Source: Motilimonas eburnea | GTDB taxonomy: Bacteria > Pseudomonadota > Gammaproteobacteria > Enterobacterales > CBDFNC01 | Reading direction: 5' to 3' | Assembly: GCF_021295345.1 (NCBI RefSeq) | Contig: NZ_JAIMJB010000005.1 | Coordinates: forward strand, 1 to 64,000 | DNA: 64,000 nucleotides | Part shown: positions 3,499-51,708 of the stretch, in pieces | Numbering within the stretch: the stretch's first letter is position 1 | Layout of the letters: each line of letters begins with the position of its first letter | Position numbers and translations under genes: made by a program | The notes under the pieces: generated by a model | The model's database searches: none | Told to the model about the DNA's origin: nothing | Seen by the model: only the letters and a program-made list of their open reading frames with translations

Positions 3499-4695
3499 AT
3501 GGCCGAGAGAAAATTACAAGATATGCGCATTCTGGTGGTTGACGATGACCCCTTTATTTTAAAAACCCTAGAGCGAACCTTATTAAAAGCAGGGGTCAGT
3601 AAGCTGATTTGCACTGACATTTCTAGCCACGCCTTGAAATACTTGAGCTCGCGATTAGAGCCCGTCGATATCTTGATCACGGATCTGAATATGCCGGATA
3701 TTGATGGAATTGAGTTGATTCGCTATGTCAGTGAGTTATCCCACCCTGTTGCCTTGGTGTTGATCAGCGGCGAAGATGAGCGCATTTTGGCCACCGCCGA
3801 AAGCATTGCCAAAGAACGCTCTGTTAATGTGCTTGGCGCATTGCAAAAGCCCATCAATGCACCGCTCTTACTTGAAATGCTATCCAGCCCTGAATTGGTT
3901 AACAACGTCAGATCCCGTGATGTACTCAGTTCGGACTTGGCGAACGAACTCAGGCAGGCGATTAAAGCAAAACACATAGTTCCCTTTTACCAACCTCAGG
4001 TATGCGCCCACAGTTTAAACGTGGTTGGCATTGAAGCCCTCGCTCGCTGGCATCACCCCGAACGCGGCCTCATCCCGCCAAATTGGTTTATTCCTTTGGC
4101 TGAAAAGCTGGCGTTAATTAACGAGCTGACCGAGCTAATTTACCAACAAGCCATCGCCGATTTAGCCACCTTGCACCAGCAGGGCTGGAGAATACAGCTA
4201 TCCGTCAACTTTTCGGCCCAGTGTTTAGCTTGGTTGGATGTACCAGAGCGATTACAACAAGCCCTAACTAGCCATAAAATCCTGCCCAAATACCTGACGG
4301 TTGAGGTCACCGAATCTTTATTAAGCCAAGATTTAGCCACCAGCCTAGATATATTGACCCGATTAAGGTTGAAGGGGCTTGGCTTGTCCATTGATGATTT
4401 TGGCACCGGCTTTTCTACTATGGAGCAACTTAAACGCATTCCCTTTAATGAGCTTAAAGTCGATCAGTCCTTTGTTCATGGTGCAACCCATAATCATGTC
4501 AGTGGTGCCATCTTGGAATCGAGCCTCAATCTGGCGCAAAAACTCGATATCACCACGGTTGCAGAGGGCGTTGAAGATCAAGCCGATCTCGATTTTGTTA
4601 AACAACTGGGTTGCCAACGCCTACAAGGGTATTTATTTGCCAAACCGATGCCGATGGATGAGTTATGTAGCTGGTTAAGCCAATATCCCCATTAA
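3499..4695 (+). CDS. Response regulator with EAL domain, predicted c-di-GMP phosphodiesterase
   Basis: 398-residue cytoplasmic protein. The N-terminal receiver spans residues about 9-125, with the acidic DDD cluster, acceptor Asp in ITDLNMPDIDG and a lysine in LQKPI. The EAL domain covers about 145-395. Visible catalytic and metal residues include EALARW, SVNFS, VEVTES, DDFGTG, LKVD, AEGVE and the QGYLFAKP end, so hydrolysis of c-di-GMP to pGpG is expected. The REC-EAL layout resembles RocR and VieA without a DNA-binding domain. It is divergent from the hybrid kinase at 160-3390, and I infer that phosphotransfer from its Hpt domain gates phosphodiesterase activity. A GAAGAG ribosome site lies just ahead of the ATG. 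Confidence 0.93.
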   Translation: MAERKLQDMRILVVDDDPFILKTLERTLLKAGVSKLICTDISSHALKYLSSRLEPVDILITDLNMPDIDGIELIRYVSELSHPVALVLISGEDERILATAESIAKERSVNVLGALQKPINAPLLLEMLSSPELVNNVRSRDVLSSDLANELRQAIKAKHIVPFYQPQVCAHSLNVVGIEALARWHHPERGLIPPNWFIPLAEKLALINELTELIYQQAIADLATLHQQGWRIQLSVNFSAQCLAWLDVPERLQQALTSHKILPKYLTVEVTESLLSQDLATSLDILTRLRLKGLGLSIDDFGTGFSTMEQLKRIPFNELKVDQSFVHGATHNHVSGAILESSLNLAQKLDITTVAEGVEDQADLDFVKQLGCQRLQGYLFAKPMPMDELCSWLSQYPH

Positions 4696-4733: not shown

Positions 4734-6023
4734 TTAGGATGACACGCCCATTTTTGCTTTCATTTCAGCCACTCTGGCTTTGTAAATCGCCAATCGCTGT
4801 TTCGACATTTCGGTCGCAAAAGGTAGCTTCACCTTGAGCGGATTAACGCGGCGACCGTCAATGTGAAATTCAAAATGTAAGTGAGGCCCAGTAGAGCGAC
4901 CCGTATTCCCGGTTTTGGCCACCATTTGCCCCATCGACACACGCTCGCCCTTACGCACGAGTATTTTACTTAAATGCAGGTAACGTGTGACATAGCGACG
5001 GCCGTGTTTCAATACCAGATAACGCCCTGCCAGTGGGTGGTTCTCTACCCGTTCAACCACACCATCACCAATGGAATAAACCGGGGTGCCTATTGGTGTG
5101 GCCCAGTCAGTACCATAATGAGGACGAATTTTACCGGTGACAGGATGACGTCGTTTTAAATTAAAGTGCGAGCTAAGGCGGTATTTGCCATTGAGAGGGC
5201 TTTTACGATATGCCTTACTTAAACCACTGCCTTCTTGGTCATAATAGTTACCATCATCATGTAAGAACGCGCTGTAGGTGGTGCCACGGCTCTTGATCAC
5301 CACACCCAAGACTTCTTCTTGGTAATATTCGCCCTTGATGCTTTGCTGGTTAACTAACACATAGTATTTATCACCCGCGCGTAGCTTTTTAAAATTCATC
5401 CTTTTTTCTAGCAGCTTTCTGATATGGGCGATACTCCCCATACTGAGTTCGTTGCTGTTAGCACTGACGTTAAACGAGCCATGAATGGCACCCGCAACCA
5501 CTTTCTCCTGCCATTCGCCAGGGTCGGTGAATAGCTCGGCGTCATAGCCATCTTCCGTTAAGGTAAAGGTCAGTTTATTCGCAATATCTATCCCTAATAC
5601 CAGCTTAGACAATTTGCCCTTGGCATCTAAGGTAATGTTTAAAGTTTGCCCCGGTAAAACGTTACCTAAGCGCAGGTCTTTTTCGTCCGCCACCAGTAAC
5701 TCTGGTAAGGCGCTGTAAACGTTAAGCCCACTTAAATACTTACCTACCGTATCGCCCTTTTGCAGGGTGATAAAGTGCTCCGATGCCCCTGACATATCAG
5801 GAAAGTCGGCATGAGCACGTAACACTTCGTTGGGATCCGGCATGGCTTGCTGCGCTTGCTGCTCCATGATTTTATCAATATCAAGGGTCAAGCTACGCGT
5901 GACCGGCTTTTGCGTTAAAGTTTCATGGCTCGGAAACATGAATAACAGAACAAGGGAAATAACAGCAATGGCGATAATAGCCAAAATATGAAAACGAGGC
6001 AGTCGGGACAACATTGAAAGCAT
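4734..6023 (-). CDS. mepM: Murein DD-endopeptidase MepM-like, M23 family
   Basis: 429-residue periplasmic or membrane-anchored peptidoglycan hydrolase. An N-terminal signal-anchor (residues about 10-30) is followed by a LysM/OapA-like region and a second domain. The C-terminal M23 (LytM) zinc peptidase has HYGTDWATPIGTPV, the GDG turn and the HLHFEF box, giving the usual His-x3-Asp and His-x-His zinc ligands. Length and order match E. coli MepM, which cleaves D-Ala-mDAP crosslinks to allow cell-wall growth. It converges with the REC-EAL gene, with only 38 bp between the stops. The start may also be the ATG three codons in; neither has a strong ribosome site. Confidence 0.9.
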   Translation of the reverse strand: MLSMLSRLPRFHILAIIAIAVISLVLLFMFPSHETLTQKPVTRSLTLDIDKIMEQQAQQAMPDPNEVLRAHADFPDMSGASEHFITLQKGDTVGKYLSGLNVYSALPELLVADEKDLRLGNVLPGQTLNITLDAKGKLSKLVLGIDIANKLTFTLTEDGYDAELFTDPGEWQEKVVAGAIHGSFNVSANSNELSMGSIAHIRKLLEKRMNFKKLRAGDKYYVLVNQQSIKGEYYQEEVLGVVIKSRGTTYSAFLHDDGNYYDQEGSGLSKAYRKSPLNGKYRLSSHFNLKRRHPVTGKIRPHYGTDWATPIGTPVYSIGDGVVERVENHPLAGRYLVLKHGRRYVTRYLHLSKILVRKGERVSMGQMVAKTGNTGRSTGPHLHFEFHIDGRRVNPLKVKLPFATEMSKQRLAIYKARVAEMKAKMGVSS

Positions 6024-6351
6024 ACTCAGGTTAAGGTTATAGAGTAACAGGTGTTATAGAGTAACAAAAGCGCTCAGTTTATAAGAATTTCCATGGAGAA
6101 TATAGCGGTATCTAGTAAGTCTCAATCCATAATTTGAAGTTGATTACGTAATCAAAGCATCGGCCAAGGCGGACAAATGACATAGTTCAGGAAGAATGAT
6201 TGGCTAAACCACATTTGCAACCTTACCTATTTCACATTATTTACCCAAACATCAAAAGCCAAATAAATAGTCTTTCAGGCTATATATATGTTTTTAATAT
6301 ACATTCACAAAAAACTCGGAATTAACGATAATTACAACTGTAAATCGCGAA

Positions 6352-6380
6352 TTGTTCCGAAGTGTTAGTCCGATTATAAA
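6352..6380 (+). promoter_or_regulatory. Sigma-70 type promoter for the candidate sRNA
   Basis: TTGTTC at 6352-6357 and TATAAA at 6375-6380 are separated by exactly 17 bp. Transcription would begin near 6386-6388, at the first base of a hairpin-forming stretch. No open reading frame follows, which supports a non-coding transcript. The rest of 6024-6351 is AT-rich; I see no gene in it. It contains the upstream region of mepM, read the other way. Confidence 0.6.
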
Positions 6381-29791: not shown

Positions 29792-30442
29792 TTGACCAAG
29801 CAAACCATGAATTACAACCTGGCTCACTTTATTACCAGTGCCCCTGATATTCGCCAAATGCCTGATGATACGGGGATTGAAGTGGCATTCGCAGGTCGCT
29901 CCAATGCCGGTAAGTCTAGCGCACTGAATGCCCTCACCCGACAAAAAACCTTGGCTCGCACCAGTAAAACACCCGGTCGCACCCAGTTAATTAACGTTTT
30001 TGAACTAGCCGAAAACAAGCGCATTATCGATTTACCCGGTTATGGTTACGCCAAAGTACCCGAGGATATGAAGAAAAACTGGCAAAAAGCCCTCGGCGAG
30101 TATTTGCAAAAACGTGAATCTCTTAAAGGTTTAGTGGTATTAATGGATATTCGCCACCCATTTAAGGACTCTGACCAAGATTTAATCTACTGGGCGGTGG
30201 ATAGCAATCTTCCTGTCTTGTGCTTACTGACTAAAGCTGACAAGCTCAAACAAGGCTTACGTAAAACCACCGTCACCAAAATGCGCCAAGAAGCCAAAAC
30301 CTTTGAGGGCGATGTTACGGTTGAAGCATTTTCCTCCACTAAAGGCATCGGCTTAGATCGCCTCAGAGCTGTACTTGATACTTGGTACTTTAATGAAGCA
30401 GAAATAAATGAGCAGGATGATGCTGAGTCAGCAGCAGAATAA
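29792..30442 (+). CDS. engB: Ribosome biogenesis GTPase EngB (YihA/YsxC)
   Basis: 216 residues from a TTG at 29792 with GGAG eight bases upstream; the ATG five codons later is the alternative. G1 [10 protein letters not shown]2 region [12 protein letters not shown]3 DLPGYGYA, G4 TKAD and G5 SST are all visible. EngB acts in late 50S assembly and is essential in many bacteria. Its position facing Spot 42 and polA is the same as in E. coli (yihA, spf, polA). Confidence 0.96.
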
Positions 30443-30624: not shown

Positions 30625-30748
30625 AAAAAAAAGCCTTGGCAAACTGCCAAGGCGCTTAATATAGCTTTATTCAATACGTGAAATAAAAGGTCTGAAAGAT
30701 AAAACTCTAGATAGAGTGTCTAGAACTATCCTTCCCTCTGTACCCTAC
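30625..30748 (-). ncRNA. spf: Spot 42 regulatory RNA
   Basis: On the minus strand the transcript begins GTAGGGTACAGAGG at 30748, identical to the start of E. coli Spot 42, and contains ATCTTTCAGACCTTTTATTT, which matches its unstructured targeting region closely. It ends in a perfect 9-bp stem (30633-30641 with 30645-30653) and a U-run from 30632. A TATAGT -10 box is at 30756-30761. Spot 42 is an Hfq-dependent sRNA that represses secondary carbon uptake and catabolism and is itself repressed by CRP-cAMP. The polA-spf-engB order is conserved. Confidence 0.95.
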
Positions 30749-30891
30749 AAGACAAACTATAGACAAAGCTTTTGCTTAGATAAAGTGCAAATTTGTAATT
30801 TATTTACATCTTTTGATCTAAAACAGTAAATCCATACCCACGCGACTTTGTTGTTAAACACAGCCCAGCAAAGTAGCGCAAGCAGCGGTTT

Positions 30892-33654
30892 TTAGTGCGC
30901 TTCATTCCAATTATCACCCACTCCCGCTTCTGCCACTAACGGCACATCTAAGGTCATGGCTTGCTCCATCAAGGTTTGCAACTGTGGCACATAGTCAGCC
31001 ACGCAGGACTCGGCGATTTCAAATACCAGTTCATCGTGCACTTGCATGATCATCTGAATTGAGTCAGCAGGTTGCTGCGCAATCCAATCGGCCACCTTGA
31101 TCATCGCCAACTTGATAATATCGGCCGCGGTGCCTTGCATGGGGGCGTTGATCGCAGCGCGCTCGGCGGCTTTTTTACGCATCGCATTACGTGCCTTAAT
31201 GTCGGGCAAATGTAAGCGGCGTCCTTTTAGGGTTTGCACATAGCCATCTTGCTCGGCGTCGGCGCGAGTCGATTCCATATAGCGCAACACACCGGGGTAG
31301 CGTTCAAAATACAGATCCATGTATTGCTGCGCTTCTTGGCGGCCTATACCAAGCTGCTTAGCTAAACCGAAGGCACTCATGCCATATATCAAACCAAAGT
31401 TAATGGCCTTAGCACTGCGGCGTTGCTCGCTAGTAACGTCATCAAGGGCAACTGAAAACACCTCTGCTGCGGTGGCGCGGTGAATATCTTTACCTTGAGC
31501 AAAGGCCTCTAATAGGCCCTTATCTTGGGATAAATGTGCCATGATCCTAAGTTCAATTTGACTGTAGTCGATGGCGACAATTTTATTACCCGGCTTGGCA
31601 ATAAAGGCTTCGCGAATACGGCGGCCTTCTTCATTGCGAATGGGGATATTCTGTAAGTTAGGATCGCTTGAGGACAACCGTCCCGTCGCGGTGACCGCCT
31701 GATGATACGAAGTATGCACTCGCCCTGTGGCCGGATTAACCATTTTAGGTAACTTATCGGTATAGGTGGATTTCAGCTTGCTTAAGCTTCGGTATTCTAA
31801 AATTAGTGCCGGTAATGGGTAATCATAAGCCAGCTCTTGTAACACTTCCTCTGCGGTTGATGGGGCACCTTTAGGTGTCTTTTTCAACACTGGCAACTTC
31901 ATCTTTTCAAACAGAATTTCTTGTAACTGTTTAGGTGAGCCAAGGTTAAACGGTTGCTCAGCGATGGCGTGGGCCTTATTTTCAAGGGCAATGATTTTTT
32001 CACCCAATTGCTGGCTTTGTGCCTGTAACAACTGGCTATCAATCAACACCCCTGTGCGTTCAATGTTAGATAAGACGCCAGCTAAAGGATGTTCTATCTC
32101 CTGATATAACGGCTCCAGACTCGATTCTTTCGTCAACTTAGGCCACAGGGTTTGGTGCAGTTGCAGGGTAATGTCCGCGTCTTCGGCGGCGTAGGTAGCT
32201 GCGGTGTCGAGTGGCACTTGGTTAAAGGTCAGTTGTTTTGCGCCTTTACCGGCCACATCTTCAAAGCTAATAGCTTTATGACCAAGATACTTAAGCGCCA
32301 AACTGTCCATGTCATGACGATTAGACACACTGTTAAATACATACGATTCCAACATGGTATCAAACTGCGCACCGCGTAACTGCACGTCATAGCGCGCTAA
32401 TACGCTGGCATCATACTTTACGTTCTGGAGCACCTTAGCTTGGGTCTCATCTTCCAGTATTGGTTTTAATTGCGCCAACACATCATCCAATGCTAATTGC
32501 TCAGGCGCATCGGGATAATCATGAGCCACAGGCAAGTAGGCCGCCTCACCTGGGGCAACGGCAAACGAAAAGCCCACCAATTGCGCGACCATATAATCTA
32601 CACTGGTGGTTTCGGTATCAAAGGCAAACAAGGGGGCTTGCTGTAATTTTTTTAGCCACTCATCCAGCTGAACTTGGGTCAAAATCGTTTCATAGTTAGC
32701 ACTGCTTAAACCGCTAACCAGAGGCGCATTGTCTCCCTCTTCCTCTGTTACACTGGTCGGTGCCGCACTCGAACCGTCTAATACTTCCGCCAGCCAACGT
32801 TTGAACTCCATTTTACCGTAAAGCTCAATCAGCTTGTCTTTGTCTTTTGGCTTCGCGATCAAATCATCATAGCCTTGGCTTAGCTCGACATCGGTTTTGA
32901 TGGTCGCCAAGGTATAAGACATTCTTGCTTCCGTCTCATGCTTACGCATTTTTTCTGGCATGGATTTAGCGCCTCGGAATCCCAGCGCAGGCAGTTCATC
33001 CAAGCGTGAATAGATCTCATCCATGCTACCTATGCCTTGCAACATGGCGATGGCGGTTTTTTCGCCCACCCCAGGCACGCCGGGAATGTTATCCACCTTG
33101 TCGCCCATCAAGGCGAGATAATCAATAATTAATTCTGGGCCGACGCCAAATTTTTCCACCACGCCGTCGCGATCTAGCACGGTATTAGTCATGGTATTGA
33201 TCAGCAATACATGCTCATCGACTAATTGCGCCATGTCCTTATCGCCAGTGCTAATCAGCGTAGGGATCCCCTGAGCACTGGCTTGTCTGGCTAGCGTACC
33301 AATCACATCATCGGCCTCAACCCCTTCATGAATAATCATCGGCAAACCTAAGGCGCGAATAATGTTATACAAAGGCTCTACCTGAACCCGTAAATCATCC
33401 GGCATGGATGGACGCTGCGCCTTATATTCAGGAAACATCTCATCACGAAAGGTTTTACCTTTAGCATCAAACACCACCGCAATATGACTAGGTGAAAACT
33501 GATTCATCAAACTGCGCAGCATATTGACCACGCCATATACCGCCCCCGTTGGCTCGCCAGCCGAGTTCGTTAAGTGAGGAGGAGCGAAAAAAGCACGGTA
33601 GAGATAAGATGAGCCATCAACAAGAATAAACGGATTTTCGGGTATTTGCGGCAT
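30892..33654 (-). CDS. polA: DNA polymerase I
   Basis: 920 residues with all three domains. The 5' nuclease (1 to about 290) has [12 protein letters not shown] and the acidic ADDVIGTLA and [18 protein letters not shown]. The proofreading exonuclease (about 330-520) retains [20 protein letters not shown] and YAAEDADIT, so it should be active. The polymerase domain has motif [16 protein letters not shown], motif [15 protein letters not shown] and motif [12 protein letters not shown]. It fills Okazaki gaps and repairs DNA. A long promoter region lies upstream. Confidence 0.98.
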
Positions 33655-34127
33655 AGTAGCTATCTGTCGTTAGAATGAATGGCGTTAGCATGCCATATCA
33701 ACCGCATCGGCTCTATGCCTATCATGGGATTTTTTCTCCGTGTAGCACATTGGGCCGCACCTAAAACGAGCCCGCAACCTCTCCTAAAGTCAGTGTTGCC
33801 GGATCAATCAAAACAATCGACTAGCCTGTGGATATCTCTGTTCACAAAAACATCTTAAATGTAACATTTTGTTAATAGATGCCAACCACAAAAACGTAAA
33901 CCAATGAAATAGAACAAAAAATAAGACATTCTATTTCGTATCATCCTCTTTTTATTTTCAATTTAATTGTGGAAAAGATTTGTTGATTTTTTACAACACT
34001 TGATATTCACTCAGAAATACAGCCGAAAAAACTAACTATGCGGGGCAATTTTGGTGAGAAATGTTGCGAGAAAGAAAAGAGTTGGAGGCCACTGTAAGAT
34101 TAACTGGATAGTGAATGACAGAAGTTA
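33655..34127. other. Promoter region of polA and flank of the RyhB pair
   Basis: No coding frame of note is seen. A perfect 9-bp inverted repeat, GAAATAGAA at 33906-33914 and TTCTATTTC at 33929-33937, lies about 250 bp upstream of polA, with a 14-bp spacer and no U-tract. The rest is AT-rich with no further structure that I can defend. Confidence 0.4.
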
Positions 34128-34241
34128 ATTAAACAGCAGCCCCCAAATTCAACAAAATGCTGAGAAAAAGCAATGTGAGCAAAGTCGTGCTTGCGTTAAC
34201 TCTTTTTACACCATGCCAGATGCCAATGAATTAACGCCAAC
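34128..34241 (-). ncRNA. Second RyhB-like small RNA (copy B), tandem to copy A
   Basis: The minus strand reads AGCACGACTTTGCTCACATT at 34191-34172, one base different from the RyhB core, then a T-run where RyhB has the CCAG end. The 5' part has GCGTTAA pairing with TTAACGC just before the core. The promoter is TTTACA-17-TATCGT with a Fur-box-like sequence in the spacer. No strong terminator is seen: a short CAGCA/TGCTG stem and TTTAATT near 34130 is the best candidate, so the 3' end is a guess. It lies directly downstream of copy A on the same strand, about 70 bp after that copy's terminator. It could be functional with a different target set, or be decaying. Confidence 0.65.
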
Positions 34242-34247
34242 AAGTTA

Positions 34248-34276
34248 ACGATAATGAATATCATTTAGATTGTAAA
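34248..34276 (-). promoter_or_regulatory. Promoter and Fur-box-like site of RyhB copy B
   Basis: Minus strand: TTTACA (34271-34276), 17-bp spacer, TATCGT (34248-34253). The spacer reads ATGATATTCAT on the minus strand, close to the Fur consensus, and covers the region between the two promoter boxes, so Fe-Fur would block polymerase. Confidence 0.6.
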
Positions 34277-34310
34277 GCACTATTTTACTCGACTTACATT
34301 TCTTTGAGCG

Positions 34311-34412
34311 AAAAAAAACCGACCCTAAAAAGAGTCGGTAAACTGGAAGCAATGTGAGCAATGTCGTGCCATGTATCAAAAAGCAATTTGCTTTACGAGT
34401 ATCTGGACAACG
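34311..34412 (-). ncRNA. ryhB: RyhB iron-responsive small RNA (copy A)
   Basis: On the minus strand the sequence at 34370-34343 contains GCACGACATTGCTCACATTG followed by CTTCCAG, the conserved RyhB core, with no mismatch to the E. coli core as I know it. The transcript of about 102 nt ends in a stem CCGACTC/GGGTCGG (one G-U pair) and eight U residues ending at 34311. The promoter has a perfect Fur palindrome. RyhB pairs with mRNAs of iron-using proteins with Hfq, leading to their decay when iron is scarce, and so spares iron. Very likely functional. Confidence 0.93.
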
Positions 34413-34418
34413 AGATAA

Positions 34419-34447
34419 ATAGTAATGATATTAATTATCATTTGCAA
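34419..34447 (-). promoter_or_regulatory. Promoter with Fur box of RyhB copy A
   Basis: Minus strand: TTGCAA (34442-34447), 17 bp, TACTAT (34419-34424). Between them lies AATGATA-ttaat-TATCATT (34424-34442), a perfect 7-bp inverted repeat matching the Fur consensus. Repression by Fe-loaded Fur is expected. Confidence 0.85.
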
Positions 34448-34540
34448 GTGTTATTTTTGTTTTTCTCGATTCATTGCAACACAAGCATCTTGTTGCGGTT
34501 AAGGTTATACTCTCAACGTTAATAAATATGAGGTATCAAA

Positions 34541-34984
34541 ATGAGAGTTTGTGGCGTTGAAATCCAAGGCAGCGAGGCCGTTATCGCACTATTAGCACTC
34601 GACAAAGGGCTATTTGAATTACCAGAATGTCGCACGCGTAAATTTATTTTGAGAGATGATAGGGATCAAGCGCAACTCGCCAAGTTTCAATTTGACGTGG
34701 CCAAGCTAGTTGAAGACTACAAAATCGAAAAGCTAGTGATCAAATCAAGACCCCACAAAGGAAAATTTGCTGGCGGTGCCGTGGGTTTTAAAATAGAAGC
34801 GGCGATTCAGCTTATCGACGGGGTCACCGTTGAGTTTATCAATGGCAATGAAATCAAAGAGCAACTAAAACGTAATCCTGTCGCCATCGACTTTACGGCA
34901 ACGGGCCTGAAAAAATTCCAAGAGCACGCATTCAACTCCGCTTACGCTAATATGATACACGCTATGTATAACAAGGAAGATTGA
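34541..34984 (+). CDS. DUF3010 family protein, function unknown
   Basis: 147 residues, beginning MRVCGVEIQGSEAVIALL and with KLVIKSRPHKGKFAGGAVGFKIEAA, which matches DUF3010. The alternation of strands and the conserved lysines and glycines recall an RNase H-like fold, but no activity is known. It is divergent from ryhB copy A and ends just before the deleted MITE copy. It has no membrane segment and stands alone. Confidence 0.8.
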   Translation: MRVCGVEIQGSEAVIALLALDKGLFELPECRTRKFILRDDRDQAQLAKFQFDVAKLVEDYKIEKLVIKSRPHKGKFAGGAVGFKIEAAIQLIDGVTVEFINGNEIKEQLKRNPVAIDFTATGLKKFQEHAFNSAYANMIHAMYNKED

Positions 34985-34987
34985 TCA

Positions 34988-35061
34988 TTCAAGTTGATTG
35001 GGTATATACCCAATCAATTTGAAAATGCATGTTTCAAGCATATCCAGGTAGATAGGGTATA
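34988..35061. repeat. Internally deleted MITE copy plus a single adjoining end
   Basis: 35005-35061 (57 bp) keeps both termini of the 268-bp element, TATACCCAATCAATTTGAAA at the left and GCATATCCAGGTAGATAGGG then TATA at the right, while all internal sequence is missing. To its left, 34988-35006 carries one more terminus facing away, so the two ends form a nearly perfect palindrome over TATA. The block fills the gap between DUF3010 and the csrB terminator. Confidence 0.75.
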
Positions 35062-35065
35062 GAAC

Positions 35066-35347
35066 AAAGAAAAGGGGCGATGTCTTAACAACATCGCCCC
35101 TGATAGTCATAACATCAAATCCATGACGTATGGTGCTCCCTGCACTTTGACTATAACAGCTACCTATCCTTAGGTTGCATTTCCCGGTCTTCCTTAACCT
35201 AACAAATCATCCTGATTTGCCTTCTCTCTCCATCCTGGAGGTGTCCCTAACCGCATCCTGCGGCGTTCCTTACATCTTCCTTGATTGCCAAACATCCTGT
35301 CTGACGACGATGTTCAACGTCCTGTTAAACATCATTTGCTTCCTGCA
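35066..35347 (-). ncRNA. csrB: CsrB-family RNA, antagonist of CsrA
   Basis: The minus strand holds thirteen AGGA or GGGA motifs in about 230 nt, many presented in hairpin loops, for example CTCC-AGGAT-GGAG, CCGC-AGGAT-GCGG, AAATC-AGGAT-GATTT and TGC-AGGGA-GCA. It ends in a 10-bp stem (35074-35083 with 35091-35100) and TTTTCTTT. A TATATT -10 box is at 35354-35359. There is no reading frame. These are the defining features of CsrB/CsrC RNAs, which bind many CsrA dimers and free their mRNA targets. Expression normally needs a BarA/UvrY-type system; I could not identify a clean regulator site upstream. Confidence 0.93.
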
Positions 35348-35359
35348 GTTATAAATATA

Positions 35360-35879
35360 AGGGAAAACCAGAATAAAAATAGCGTTAAACCCTAACCTTA
35401 ACGGCCAAAGAATCATTCAGATATGACAATTAATAGTAAATACCCTTAAATAACAACATATTAAATGTACTAAGCACTCGTTTTACGCAATCATAAAACG
35501 ACATTGCAGCCACAAAATGGGGCAATAAACGCCATCACGAATAGTCAATGTCTCACAACAGGATTGACTGCCACCCAGTACACGCCACCAACATAAAACT
35601 TCGTTTAAATTCAACTGTACAGCACAACCCATACTTTTGACTGATTAAAACCGGTTTCACTATTTTTTTGCGCGTTCAAGAGACCTTCAAACAAAACAAT
35701 CAACTAAACAAAATAGTAACGAGAAATGAAAGGCGAGTAGCAAAAGATAAATGTAAATGAGAAATATTATTTTGTAATAAAAACGATATTTATCAGTCTA
35801 AATTAATCGAAGCACAGCCTGCAGAGTGGTCAACGACGGCTAGAATTAGATCAAAATGACTAAATGGTGACCAAAATCA
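35360..35879. other. Intergenic region between csrB and the chemoreceptor gene
   Basis: About 520 bp of AT-rich sequence. It should hold the csrB upstream activator region and the chemoreceptor promoter. I see no gene, no strong repeat and no clear terminator. Confidence 0.5.
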
Positions 35880-37892
35880 ATGCAACTTAAATTCAAACTC
35901 GCGCTGTTGTTTATTGTTATTGGCTTAGTTCCTGCGATACTCAGCAGCCTTATTGTCGAAAATATCGCTTCTAAGGCTTTAAAAGACCAAGCCTACGAGC
36001 AACTGTCCGGACTGTGGAAAATCAAACAAACCCAGCTCAACAACTACTTTAAGCAAAAACAAAGGGATCTAAATGTATTGGATAGTTTGTTGCTGAATTT
36101 GCAACAAGAGAATGCCAGCAAATCAGCAGAACAGTATGCCGCTAACTATCATGCTCTGTTCACTCAGTATATTGAGCAAAAGCAATATTATGATTTTTTT
36201 ATTATTAATCAGGCAGGTGATGTATTTTACACCGTCACTAAAGAGCCCGACTATCAGACCAACATGCTTAACGGCCCCTATCGCGACTCCGGCCTAGGCC
36301 AAGTATTTAAAAAAGCGCTGGCGAATACCGGGTTTAACATTGTTGACTTTTCACCCTATGCGCCCAGTAAAGACGCGCCAGCGGCCTTTATTGCCCATCG
36401 TATTACCTTGGCTGATACCCCTTATGTGATCGCTTTGCAGCTCTCTATCGATGAAATCAATGCCATGATGCAGGTGCGTGAGGGGCTGGGCGAAACTGGA
36501 GAGACCTACCTGGTTGGAACCGATAACTTAATGCGATCGGATTCCTTCCTCGACCCAAGTAATCGCAACATCCAAGCTTCGTTTGCTGGCGATGTCAACA
36601 ATAACGGCGTTGATACCGAGGCAACCAAGGCGAGCTTTAGTGGTCAACAAGGCTTTGCTTTGATCCAAGACTACAATAACAACCCGGTATTATCGGCCTA
36701 CGGTGCAGTGCAATTTGGTGATGTGCAATGGGCTCTGCTGGCTGAAATTGACGAAAAAGAAGCCTTAGCGCCCGTTGCTAAACTCACCAATACCACCTAC
36801 TCCATTGTTGGTATCTCAAGCATCATCATCTTAGCTGTGGCTTGGTTAACCACGCGAAGTATTACTCAACCCTTGGGGGGTGAGCCAAAAGACATGCTTG
36901 ACCTGACAAGCAATATTTCCAGTGGTGATCTCACTTATCCCTTTGAATTTAATCCACACGACACCAGCGTGTATTCAAGCCTAGGTAAGATGCAGCAAAA
37001 CTTGTCGGACCTATTAGGCAAGATAGCCAGTGCTAGCCAAGTGATGGCACAAAAAGCAGAAGAAACCTCCGTTGTATCGAATCAAACGCGTATCTCGGCC
37101 GCCGAGCAGACCAAAGAGATCGAGATGATGGCCACCGCAATGGAAGAAATGAATGCCGCAGCCAATGAAATTAACCACCATGCTAATTTGGCCGCATCCG
37201 AAATCAACGACATCAACCGTCACCTCAATGATGTTGATACCGCCATAGATGACACCTTACATTCGATGTCTGATGCCCTTAACCTTAACACCACGACAGC
37301 ATCAGAAATGGAAGCCCTTAACTTACATAGCCAAAAAATCGGTCAGGTACTTGAAGTGATCCAAACTATCGCCGAGCAAACCAACTTGCTTGCCTTAAAT
37401 GCGGCTATCGAAGCAGCGCGAGCAGGCGAGCAAGGCCGCGGATTTGCCGTGGTTGCCGATGAAGTACGTGAACTGGCGAAGAAGGTACAAACCTCGACCA
37501 AAGATATTGAACTGGTGATTGGCGAACTCAACCATCAAGCCAGCCATGTCTCCGCATCGATGCGCTCAAGTGCCAGCCAATCTGAGCATACGTTTGAAAA
37601 GGCCAAAGAAATGCAGCTAGCCTTACATGAAGTAGCCAAGACCATGAATCAAATCAACGAACACGCCATGCAAACGGCGGTCGCTGCTGAGCAGCAATCG
37701 CAAGTCACTGCCGATGTCGCCCGCAGCATTACAAATATCGGTGTCGCTGCCGAACAAAGCAGCCAAGGCGCAACACAAACCTCACAAGCCAGTGGTAACC
37801 TAGCGCAACTGGCCAGCGAGCTAGAAGCCGCCACCCAGTTCTTTAAATTTAAAGCCACCAGCACGGTAAGCAATACGTTAGAGCCGAGCTAA
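35880..37892 (+). CDS. Methyl-accepting chemotaxis protein
   Basis: 670 residues. Membrane segments at about 7-27 and 305-325 bracket a large periplasmic dCache-like sensor domain ([16 protein letters not shown] and [18 protein letters not shown]). After HAMP comes the cytoplasmic signalling coiled-coil with the hairpin tip [20 protein letters not shown] followed by [19 protein letters not shown]. Glutamine/glutamate pairs around [13 protein letters not shown] are likely methylation sites. The ligand is unknown. A GGTGA precedes the ATG at a loose distance. Single gene, followed by a convergent hairpin. Confidence 0.95.
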
Positions 37893-51689: not shown

Positions 51690-51708
51690 GCTAATGCTAA
51701 TGATTATT
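51690..51708. promoter_or_regulatory. Fur-box-like site before the choice-of-anchor I gene
   Basis: The plus-strand 19-mer starting GCTAATGCTAATGATTATT matches the Fur consensus at 15 of 19 positions by eye. It is 34 bp upstream of the ATG at 51656. Confidence 0.55.

Follow-up and report, generated by a model that had tools for sequence, protein, structure and literature searches.

Why do the genes of four regulatory small RNAs (sRNAs) lie side by side around polA in Motilimonas eburnea? On the minus strand of a 64-kb contig stretch of this genome (G000; hereafter the window), CsrB, RyhB-1, RyhB-2, and a diverged Spot 42 (spf) are grouped around the DNA polymerase I gene. An initial annotation had assigned the four RNAs, all on the minus strand, to their families and had proposed that they form an sRNA hub inherited as a unit. 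The families and the strand were borne out, by cmscan and, in the case of RyhB-2, by comparison with relatives. The cluster is, however, quite probably the form that a long-standing gammaproteobacterial neighborhood, RyhB-polA-Spot 42-engB, takes in Motilimonas, with one CsrB copy and a tandem second RyhB beside it and the RNAs most likely acting independently. As far as sequence can tell, the grouping is mostly inherited gene order that is already in print and no new control hub; what is new here is the close CsrB copy and RyhB-2, a tandem paralog that has a conserved hairpin of its own. This reading draws on sequence homology and conservation, on gene order, on stem-loops, and on matches to the sites of Fur and UvrY. 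The window was compared with M. cestriensis (G001; locus L021), M. pumila (G002; L022), and Motilimonas sp. E26 (G003; L020), which with G000 make up family f1.

Two of the four genes belong to their Rfam families by score. CsrB (35063 to 35368, minus strand), one of four copies in the M. eburnea genome, matched RF00018 with 110.7 bits (cut-off, 71; E = 5.3e-30). Its 306-nucleotide (nt) match is rich in GGA, with 15 occurrences compared to a mean of 6.9 and a maximum of 13 in shuffled sequences (n = 1,000); on the plus strand, no window of 306 bases has more than 8. A terminator-like stem-loop with a T-run was found by the stem-loop scan at 35073 to 35101 (minus strand). A UvrY/GacA-type box, TGTGAGACATTGACTATT, is located at 35540 to 35557 (minus strand); it begins 189 nt upstream of the point where the CsrB model match starts, with its center ~180 nt upstream, and is one base off the Salmonella csrC site given in the relevant section of PMC4682653. 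Using a pattern that was written after these sequences had been viewed and was loosened to admit the window copy, we found the box once in the 64 kb and upstream of all four M. eburnea CsrB copies and the three orthologs examined. It starts 210 to 212 nt before the model match at two of the M. eburnea copies and the three orthologs, and 373 nt before it at the C3 copy, where the match seems to begin late. CsrB matches numbered four each in G000, G001, and G003, compared to seven in M. pumila.

RyhB-1 (~100 nt; 34312 to 34412, minus strand) matched RF00057 at 34373 to 34313 with 61.4 bits (cut-off, 55; E = 4.8e-10). Its 5′ end was placed from a promoter, TTGCAA/TACTAT (34424 to 34419), which was read by eye and agrees with the consensus at 8 of 12 positions, and is hence unlisted by the promoter scan. 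The gene has a terminator-like stem-loop consisting of a 9-pair stem followed by a T-run (34318 to 34339, minus strand) and a Fur-box-like site matching 15 of 19 positions (34427 to 34445, minus strand); the stretch that includes this site, 34412 to 34450, is 92.3% identical to L020. Five matches, the best in the window, differ from the Fur consensus at 4 of 19 positions, and none differs at 3 or fewer. Four of the five, with both strands counted, are the sites upstream of RyhB-1 and RyhB-2, and the fifth is at 51690. This is consistent with ryhB of Shewanella oneidensis, likewise described with a 15/19 Fur-box in the section of PMC2964681 that covers it. A weak RyhB match in M. pumila (L012; 26.9 bits) was rejected, as no RyhB core was seen in its letters.

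Spot 42 (30625 to 30748, minus strand; 5′ end placed at 30748 by homology, GTAGGGTACAGAGG) matched its family model over the full length (30758 to 30625) with 63.8 bits (E = 5.7e-11). Since this is below the Rfam cut-off of 80 bits, we refer to spf as a diverged homolog and do not file it under RF00021. The orthologous matches score 62.8 and 60.9 bits, and the gene occupies the position expected of the family, in the polA-engB gap and in the same orientation as polA. In M. pumila, the match falls to 31.5 bits and has neither the CTTTCAGACC segment nor the box conserved at the 5′ end, which suggests that Spot 42 has been lost or has strongly diverged there. A terminator-like stem-loop followed by a T-run is found at 30633 to 30653 (minus strand), and a possible −10 element read by eye, TATAGT (30756 to 30761, minus strand), precedes the inferred 5′ end by 7 nt; it is kept in G001 and G003, missing in G002, and not among the sites of the promoter scan. 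The polA-engB gap of M. pumila (L022, 3769 to 4801) contains an extra open reading frame (ORF; 3821 to 4513) besides the remnant-like Spot 42.

RyhB-2 (34072 to 34241, minus strand) is a proposed second, longer iron-response sRNA of ~170 nt, both ends of which were placed by alignment with L020 and L021. The significant covariance-model hits that the initial annotation anticipated were thus obtained for CsrB, RyhB-1, and, below the curated cut-off, Spot 42, but not for RyhB-2, which reached 23.4 bits (34194 to 34127, minus strand; E = 0.53) against the Rfam RyhB model. Because this is under the cut-off of 55, we call it RyhB-like and not a member of RF00057. Its identification comes instead from counterparts in G001 and G003, a Fur-box-like site, and partly covarying hairpin arms. 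The RyhB core is unchanged in L020 and L021 and altered at one base in the window, and the Fur-box-like site (34250 to 34268, minus strand; 15/19) overlaps a promoter-like TTTACA (34276 to 34271)/TATCGT (34253 to 34248). The 3′ hairpin (34083 to 34145, minus strand), after which comes CTCTTTTCTTTC, contains a 21-nt loop segment, CTTCTGTCATTCACTATCCAG (34104 to 34124, minus strand), that is identical in three species.

Fold z-scores for the RyhB-2 RNA were −5.48 (34070 to 34205 of the window), and −4.51 and −4.61 for its counterparts in L020 and L021. In the RNAalifold structure of the three sequences, aligned over 125 nt, 95.2% of cells are paired, and both partners have changed in 6 of the 35 pairs, compared to a mean of 2.4 in shuffles (none of 500 as high); five of the six are among the 21 pairs of the 3′ hairpin. 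This covariation is only suggestive, since the structure was derived from the same three sequences, two of which are nearly identical. A model made from them (R1) scored 140.7 (window) to 156.7 bits in G000, G001, and G003, as expected by construction. Neither R1 nor a search for the 21-nt segment (up to 3 mismatches, either strand) detected RyhB-2 in M. pumila, leaving it in three of the four Motilimonas species. We rejected its occurrence elsewhere among 247 genomes of the order, searched with Infernal’s stricter filters: the other 14 of 17 genomes matching R1 scored 35 bits or less, each match overlapping a RyhB match. A dispersed repeat or long antisense origin of the hairpin was also rejected, with the 21-nt segment found just once each in G000, G001, and G003, as was loop cross-talk with CsrB and RyhB-1, for which 247 and 219 of 500 shuffled loops, respectively, paired as well.

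These features indicate that RyhB-2 is most likely a working, diverged paralog with a long 3′ hairpin that terminates the transcript and contains the invariant loop segment. It could also be a decaying duplicate without a function of its own, as the low score to the RyhB model, the altered core base in the window, the absence from M. pumila, and the pairs broken in one sequence (3 of 21 in the hairpin and 1 of 7 in the middle) might suggest. We consider decay unlikely, however, as the core is 91% identical between the window and L020 and the loop segment 100% (21/21), while the leader, spacer, and downstream stretches are at 45 to 61%; in addition, the Fur-box-like site is retained, and the two-sided pair changes exceed those in shuffles, if only across these three sequences. 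Identity is 65% for the hairpin and 76% for the promoter stretch. A further possibility for the tandem is that RyhB-1 and RyhB-2 act like PrrF1 and PrrF2 of Pseudomonas, read-through of which yields a third, longer RNA, PrrH. The two genes are in same-strand tandem, their model matches start 179 nt apart, and both have a Fur-box-like site; the corresponding section of PMC2964681 compares the tandem genes of S. amazonensis with the tandem sRNAs of P. aeruginosa. The 9-pair stem and T-run of RyhB-1, on the other hand, argue against much read-through, and a PrrH-like transcript at this locus seems to us distinctly improbable. If RyhB-2 is a working paralog, it may, as a tentative extension, be built in two parts, with a 5′ half that reaches targets via the core and a 3′ hairpin that serves as a second module (protein binding or an antisense loop), acquired in Motilimonas once the gene had been duplicated in tandem. 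RyhB-2 would then illustrate, on a small scale and in nature, how an sRNA can acquire an additional module following such a duplication.

The origin of the neighborhood becomes apparent from gene order in relatives. Across the 247 genomes, 92 had a RyhB match (E of 0.001), 67 of them together with Spot 42 and 25 without an spf match; all of these counts are lower bounds, given the stricter filters used for genome scoring. Among the 67 genomes with both matches, 38 have RyhB less than 10 kb from spf, upstream of it and on its strand, including all of those in f1 (4/4), f2 (8/8), f21 (18/18), and f11 (1/1), most of f15 (4/5), some of f25 (3/15), and none of f18 (0/16). Family f21 was read as Vibrio-type, as RyhB has identical coordinates in G187 and Vibrio sp. 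RE86 (L049), and likewise in G177 and V. galatheae (L051). polA lay between RyhB and spf in every one of the 34 genomes (of 38) with a known polA position, 30 of these positions being among the matches listed and four (G004, G065, G081, and G158) obtained by tblastn, with G097, G109, G134, and G146 left out. A more sensitive RyhB run placed RyhB upstream of spf on the same strand, again under 10 kb away, in all 33 genomes of f1, f2, and f21, with the nearest copy 3.3 to 3.6 kb from spf (the spf of G002 being doubtful). Tandem RyhB matches were present in 6 of 11 f2 genomes (2 to 3 each, the second in G029 being a 20-nt partial match), and nine copies aligned from four genomes of this family are near-identical; they, too, form a long hairpin at the 3′ end when folded.

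Three near-identical tandem RyhB copies, 364 to 378 nt apart and each with its own conserved promoter stretch, were observed upstream of polA at L152 and L154 (G158 and G065). Tandem RyhB-like copies also occur in family f16 (G117:C119:4362-4645, 229 nt apart; G074:C8:20126-21370, ~1.2 kb apart), which had no Spot 42 match at 0.001 in its four RyhB genomes.

CsrB does not share this conservation. In a more sensitive run over the same 33 genomes, a CsrB above the cut-off, on the same strand and within 6 kb of spf, was confined to f1 (4/4), where all four species have the copy on the RyhB strand, 0.7 to 2.5 kb upstream of that gene; the arrangement is particular to Motilimonas in this set. Ten of the 11 f2 genomes have a CsrB pair 22 to 40 kb upstream on the same strand; in the one remaining, the CsrBs are on other contigs. 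Four f21 genomes carry CsrB 9 to 11 kb upstream on the opposite strand, and in the rest, three with weak matches apart, it is tens of kilobases off, farther, or on other contigs. The suggestion that the same order might exist in relatives holds for RyhB-polA-Spot 42; the close CsrB was seen, among these 33 genomes, in Motilimonas only. The weak CsrB-like matches (23.6 to 34.1 bits), in the f21 genomes G119, G143, and G093, are on the spf strand and ~2.4 kb downstream of that gene; this is the side on which csrC is found in Escherichia coli.

M. pumila (L022) retains the order CsrB, DUF3010, RyhB-1, polA, engB. Between DUF3010 and RyhB, however, a gene for an AraC-type regulator and another ORF have been inserted, and the chemoreceptor ORF that follows has the opposite orientation, with just 33% identity over 340 residues. 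The complete sRNA set is thus found in three of four species, and because M. pumila is without RyhB-2 and combines an eroded Spot 42 with inserted genes, the set is no obligate unit. The claim of a hub inherited as a unit was not supported, given these losses and insertions, the distance of CsrB in f2, and its changing side, strand, and contig in f21. Replication as a unit, also proposed, is no evidence of function, since chromosomal neighbors always replicate together. A true hub, in which the four RNAs were selected for co-location through shared gene dosage or cross-talk, would fit the same-strand CsrB within 6 kb of spf throughout Motilimonas, the proximity of ryhB to oriC noted for Aliivibrio salmonicida in part of PMC5511505, and the effect of spf deletion on RyhB levels in that species (PMC3295665, section on this locus). 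M. pumila nevertheless keeps the neighborhood despite its changes, CsrB varies in location in f2 and f21, RyhB and spf are within 10 kb of each other in no f18 genome, and a duplex between the RyhB-2 loop and Spot 42 (−13.7 kcal/mol) was matched by 72 of 500 shuffled loops, a candidate cross-talk that we rejected. Selection for a hub is in our view very improbable.

Several observations weigh against inherited gene order with independent RNAs. The close same-strand CsrB in all four Motilimonas species makes a mild advantage of the arrangement conceivable. In A. salmonicida, RyhB levels dropped on deletion of spf or VSsrna24, as reported in the same section of PMC3295665, which would mean that neighboring RNAs of the locus may influence each other. 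The classical palindrome TGTAAG-N6-CTTACA was not found at CsrB within 3 mismatches; at that tolerance the window as a whole has 31 matches versus 27 expected, and we rejected it as a signal at CsrB. The stem-loop plus T-run scan (7 sites versus 5.5 expected) and the promoter scan (8 versus 10.8) are weak evidence by themselves, because site counts were near or below expectation, and promoter sites were not taken as proof. Against the covariation in RyhB-2, four pairs are broken in one sequence without compensation, and the number of further pair types was not unusual (159 of 500 shuffles).

On balance, the Fur-box-like and UvrY-type sites suggest that different regulators act on the RNAs, which makes independent regulation the likeliest. 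With transcription, targets, and regulation taken from the respective families, each of the four RNAs would work from its own promoter. Fur would repress RyhB-1 and RyhB-2 when iron is plentiful; under iron shortage, both would pair via the shared core with messenger RNAs of iron-using proteins. A BarA/UvrY-type response regulator would switch on CsrB, which would in turn titrate CsrA, and Spot 42 would answer to carbon status.

The protein-coding genes are as previously described, with polA (30892 to 33654, minus strand; Pfam DNA_pol_A, 3.3e-166) and a DUF3010 gene (34541 to 34984; PF11215, 1e-56) confirmed by Pfam between the flanking genes. DUF3010 is on the plus strand, opposite to the sRNAs and divergent from RyhB-1. 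The flanks are engB/yihA (29792 to 30442, plus strand; ribosome-associated GTPase, Pfam MMR_HSR1, 66.7% identical to E. coli YihA) and a methyl-accepting chemotaxis protein gene (35880 to 37892, plus strand; Pfam MCPsignal, 4.9e-40). We rejected DUF3010 as an sRNA partner: an insensitive pattern scan of 77 non-Motilimonas DUF3010 loci gave no RyhB core and no CsrB-like stretch, and short motifs of Spot 42 were matched, with 1 to 2 mismatches and only here and there, at 6 loci; cmscan of 7 of these loci gave no sRNA of these families. Two DnaA-box-like sequences, TTTTCCACA (33976 to 33968, minus strand) and ATATCCACA (33835 to 33827, minus strand), lie upstream of polA, each one base off the DnaA-box consensus, TTATCCACA; counterparts are visible in L020, L021, and L022.

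Parts of this arrangement have precedents. A term search of PMC13182010, on Motilimonas genomes, gave no mention of sRNA, RyhB, Csr, Spot 42, non-coding, or iron. In a literature search with most subscription journals outside its reach, we found no paper naming both Motilimonas and RyhB and, among the matches listed, no report of this cluster. The closest described locus is that of A. salmonicida, where, according to the relevant section of PMC3295665 (2012), ryhB is upstream of polA and spf between polA and engB, as in the window. It differs in that a single RyhB is named, an additional sRNA, VSsrna24, lies beside spf, and that section mentions no adjacent CsrB. The proximity of csrC to spf in E. 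coli is mentioned there too. The E. coli order is polA-spf-yihA-csrC-yihI-hemN. In E. coli SK1144 (L128), cmscan placed Spot 42 (4971 to 5089) and CsrC (6118 to 6371) on the same strand ~1 kb apart, with yihA between them, and yihI and hemN come after engB in the window as well, further along. The statement that a wide distance separates the four genes in E. coli was thus incorrect for spf and csrC, while for RyhB it held in so far as cmscan found none in that 10 kb of this one strain. A Spot 42 next to an RNA of the CsrB clan is therefore common to both loci, but the Csr RNA of E. coli is on the engB side and not upstream of polA.

For CsrB, the box distance of ~−180 from the model start resembles the −183/−182 of E. 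coli csrB in the BarA-UvrY system, as given in part of PMC4682653, whereas the 4, 4, 7, and 4 CsrB matches of the Motilimonas genomes depart from its CsrB/CsrC pair; duplication and synteny groups of csrB in Vibrio are a subject of PMC6262261. For RyhB, the S. oneidensis RNA is described in a section of PMC5826389, and PMC2964681, in its section on these genes, places V. cholerae ryhB downstream of VC0106 and reports that Shewanella ryhB was located by synteny after Rfam and BLAST had failed. With the grouping being mostly inherited gene order, polA is a useful anchor for RyhB and Spot 42 homologs that Rfam misses or scores low. The same section of PMC2964681 describes two tandem ryhB genes with Fur-boxes in S. 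amazonensis, compared there with the tandem sRNAs of P. aeruginosa. Tandem RyhB is thus known in kind, and the aligned f2 copies are near-identical, whereas the 3′ half of Motilimonas RyhB-2 differs from that of RyhB-1; judged by its letters, it is by this 3′ half that the second Motilimonas copy stands apart.

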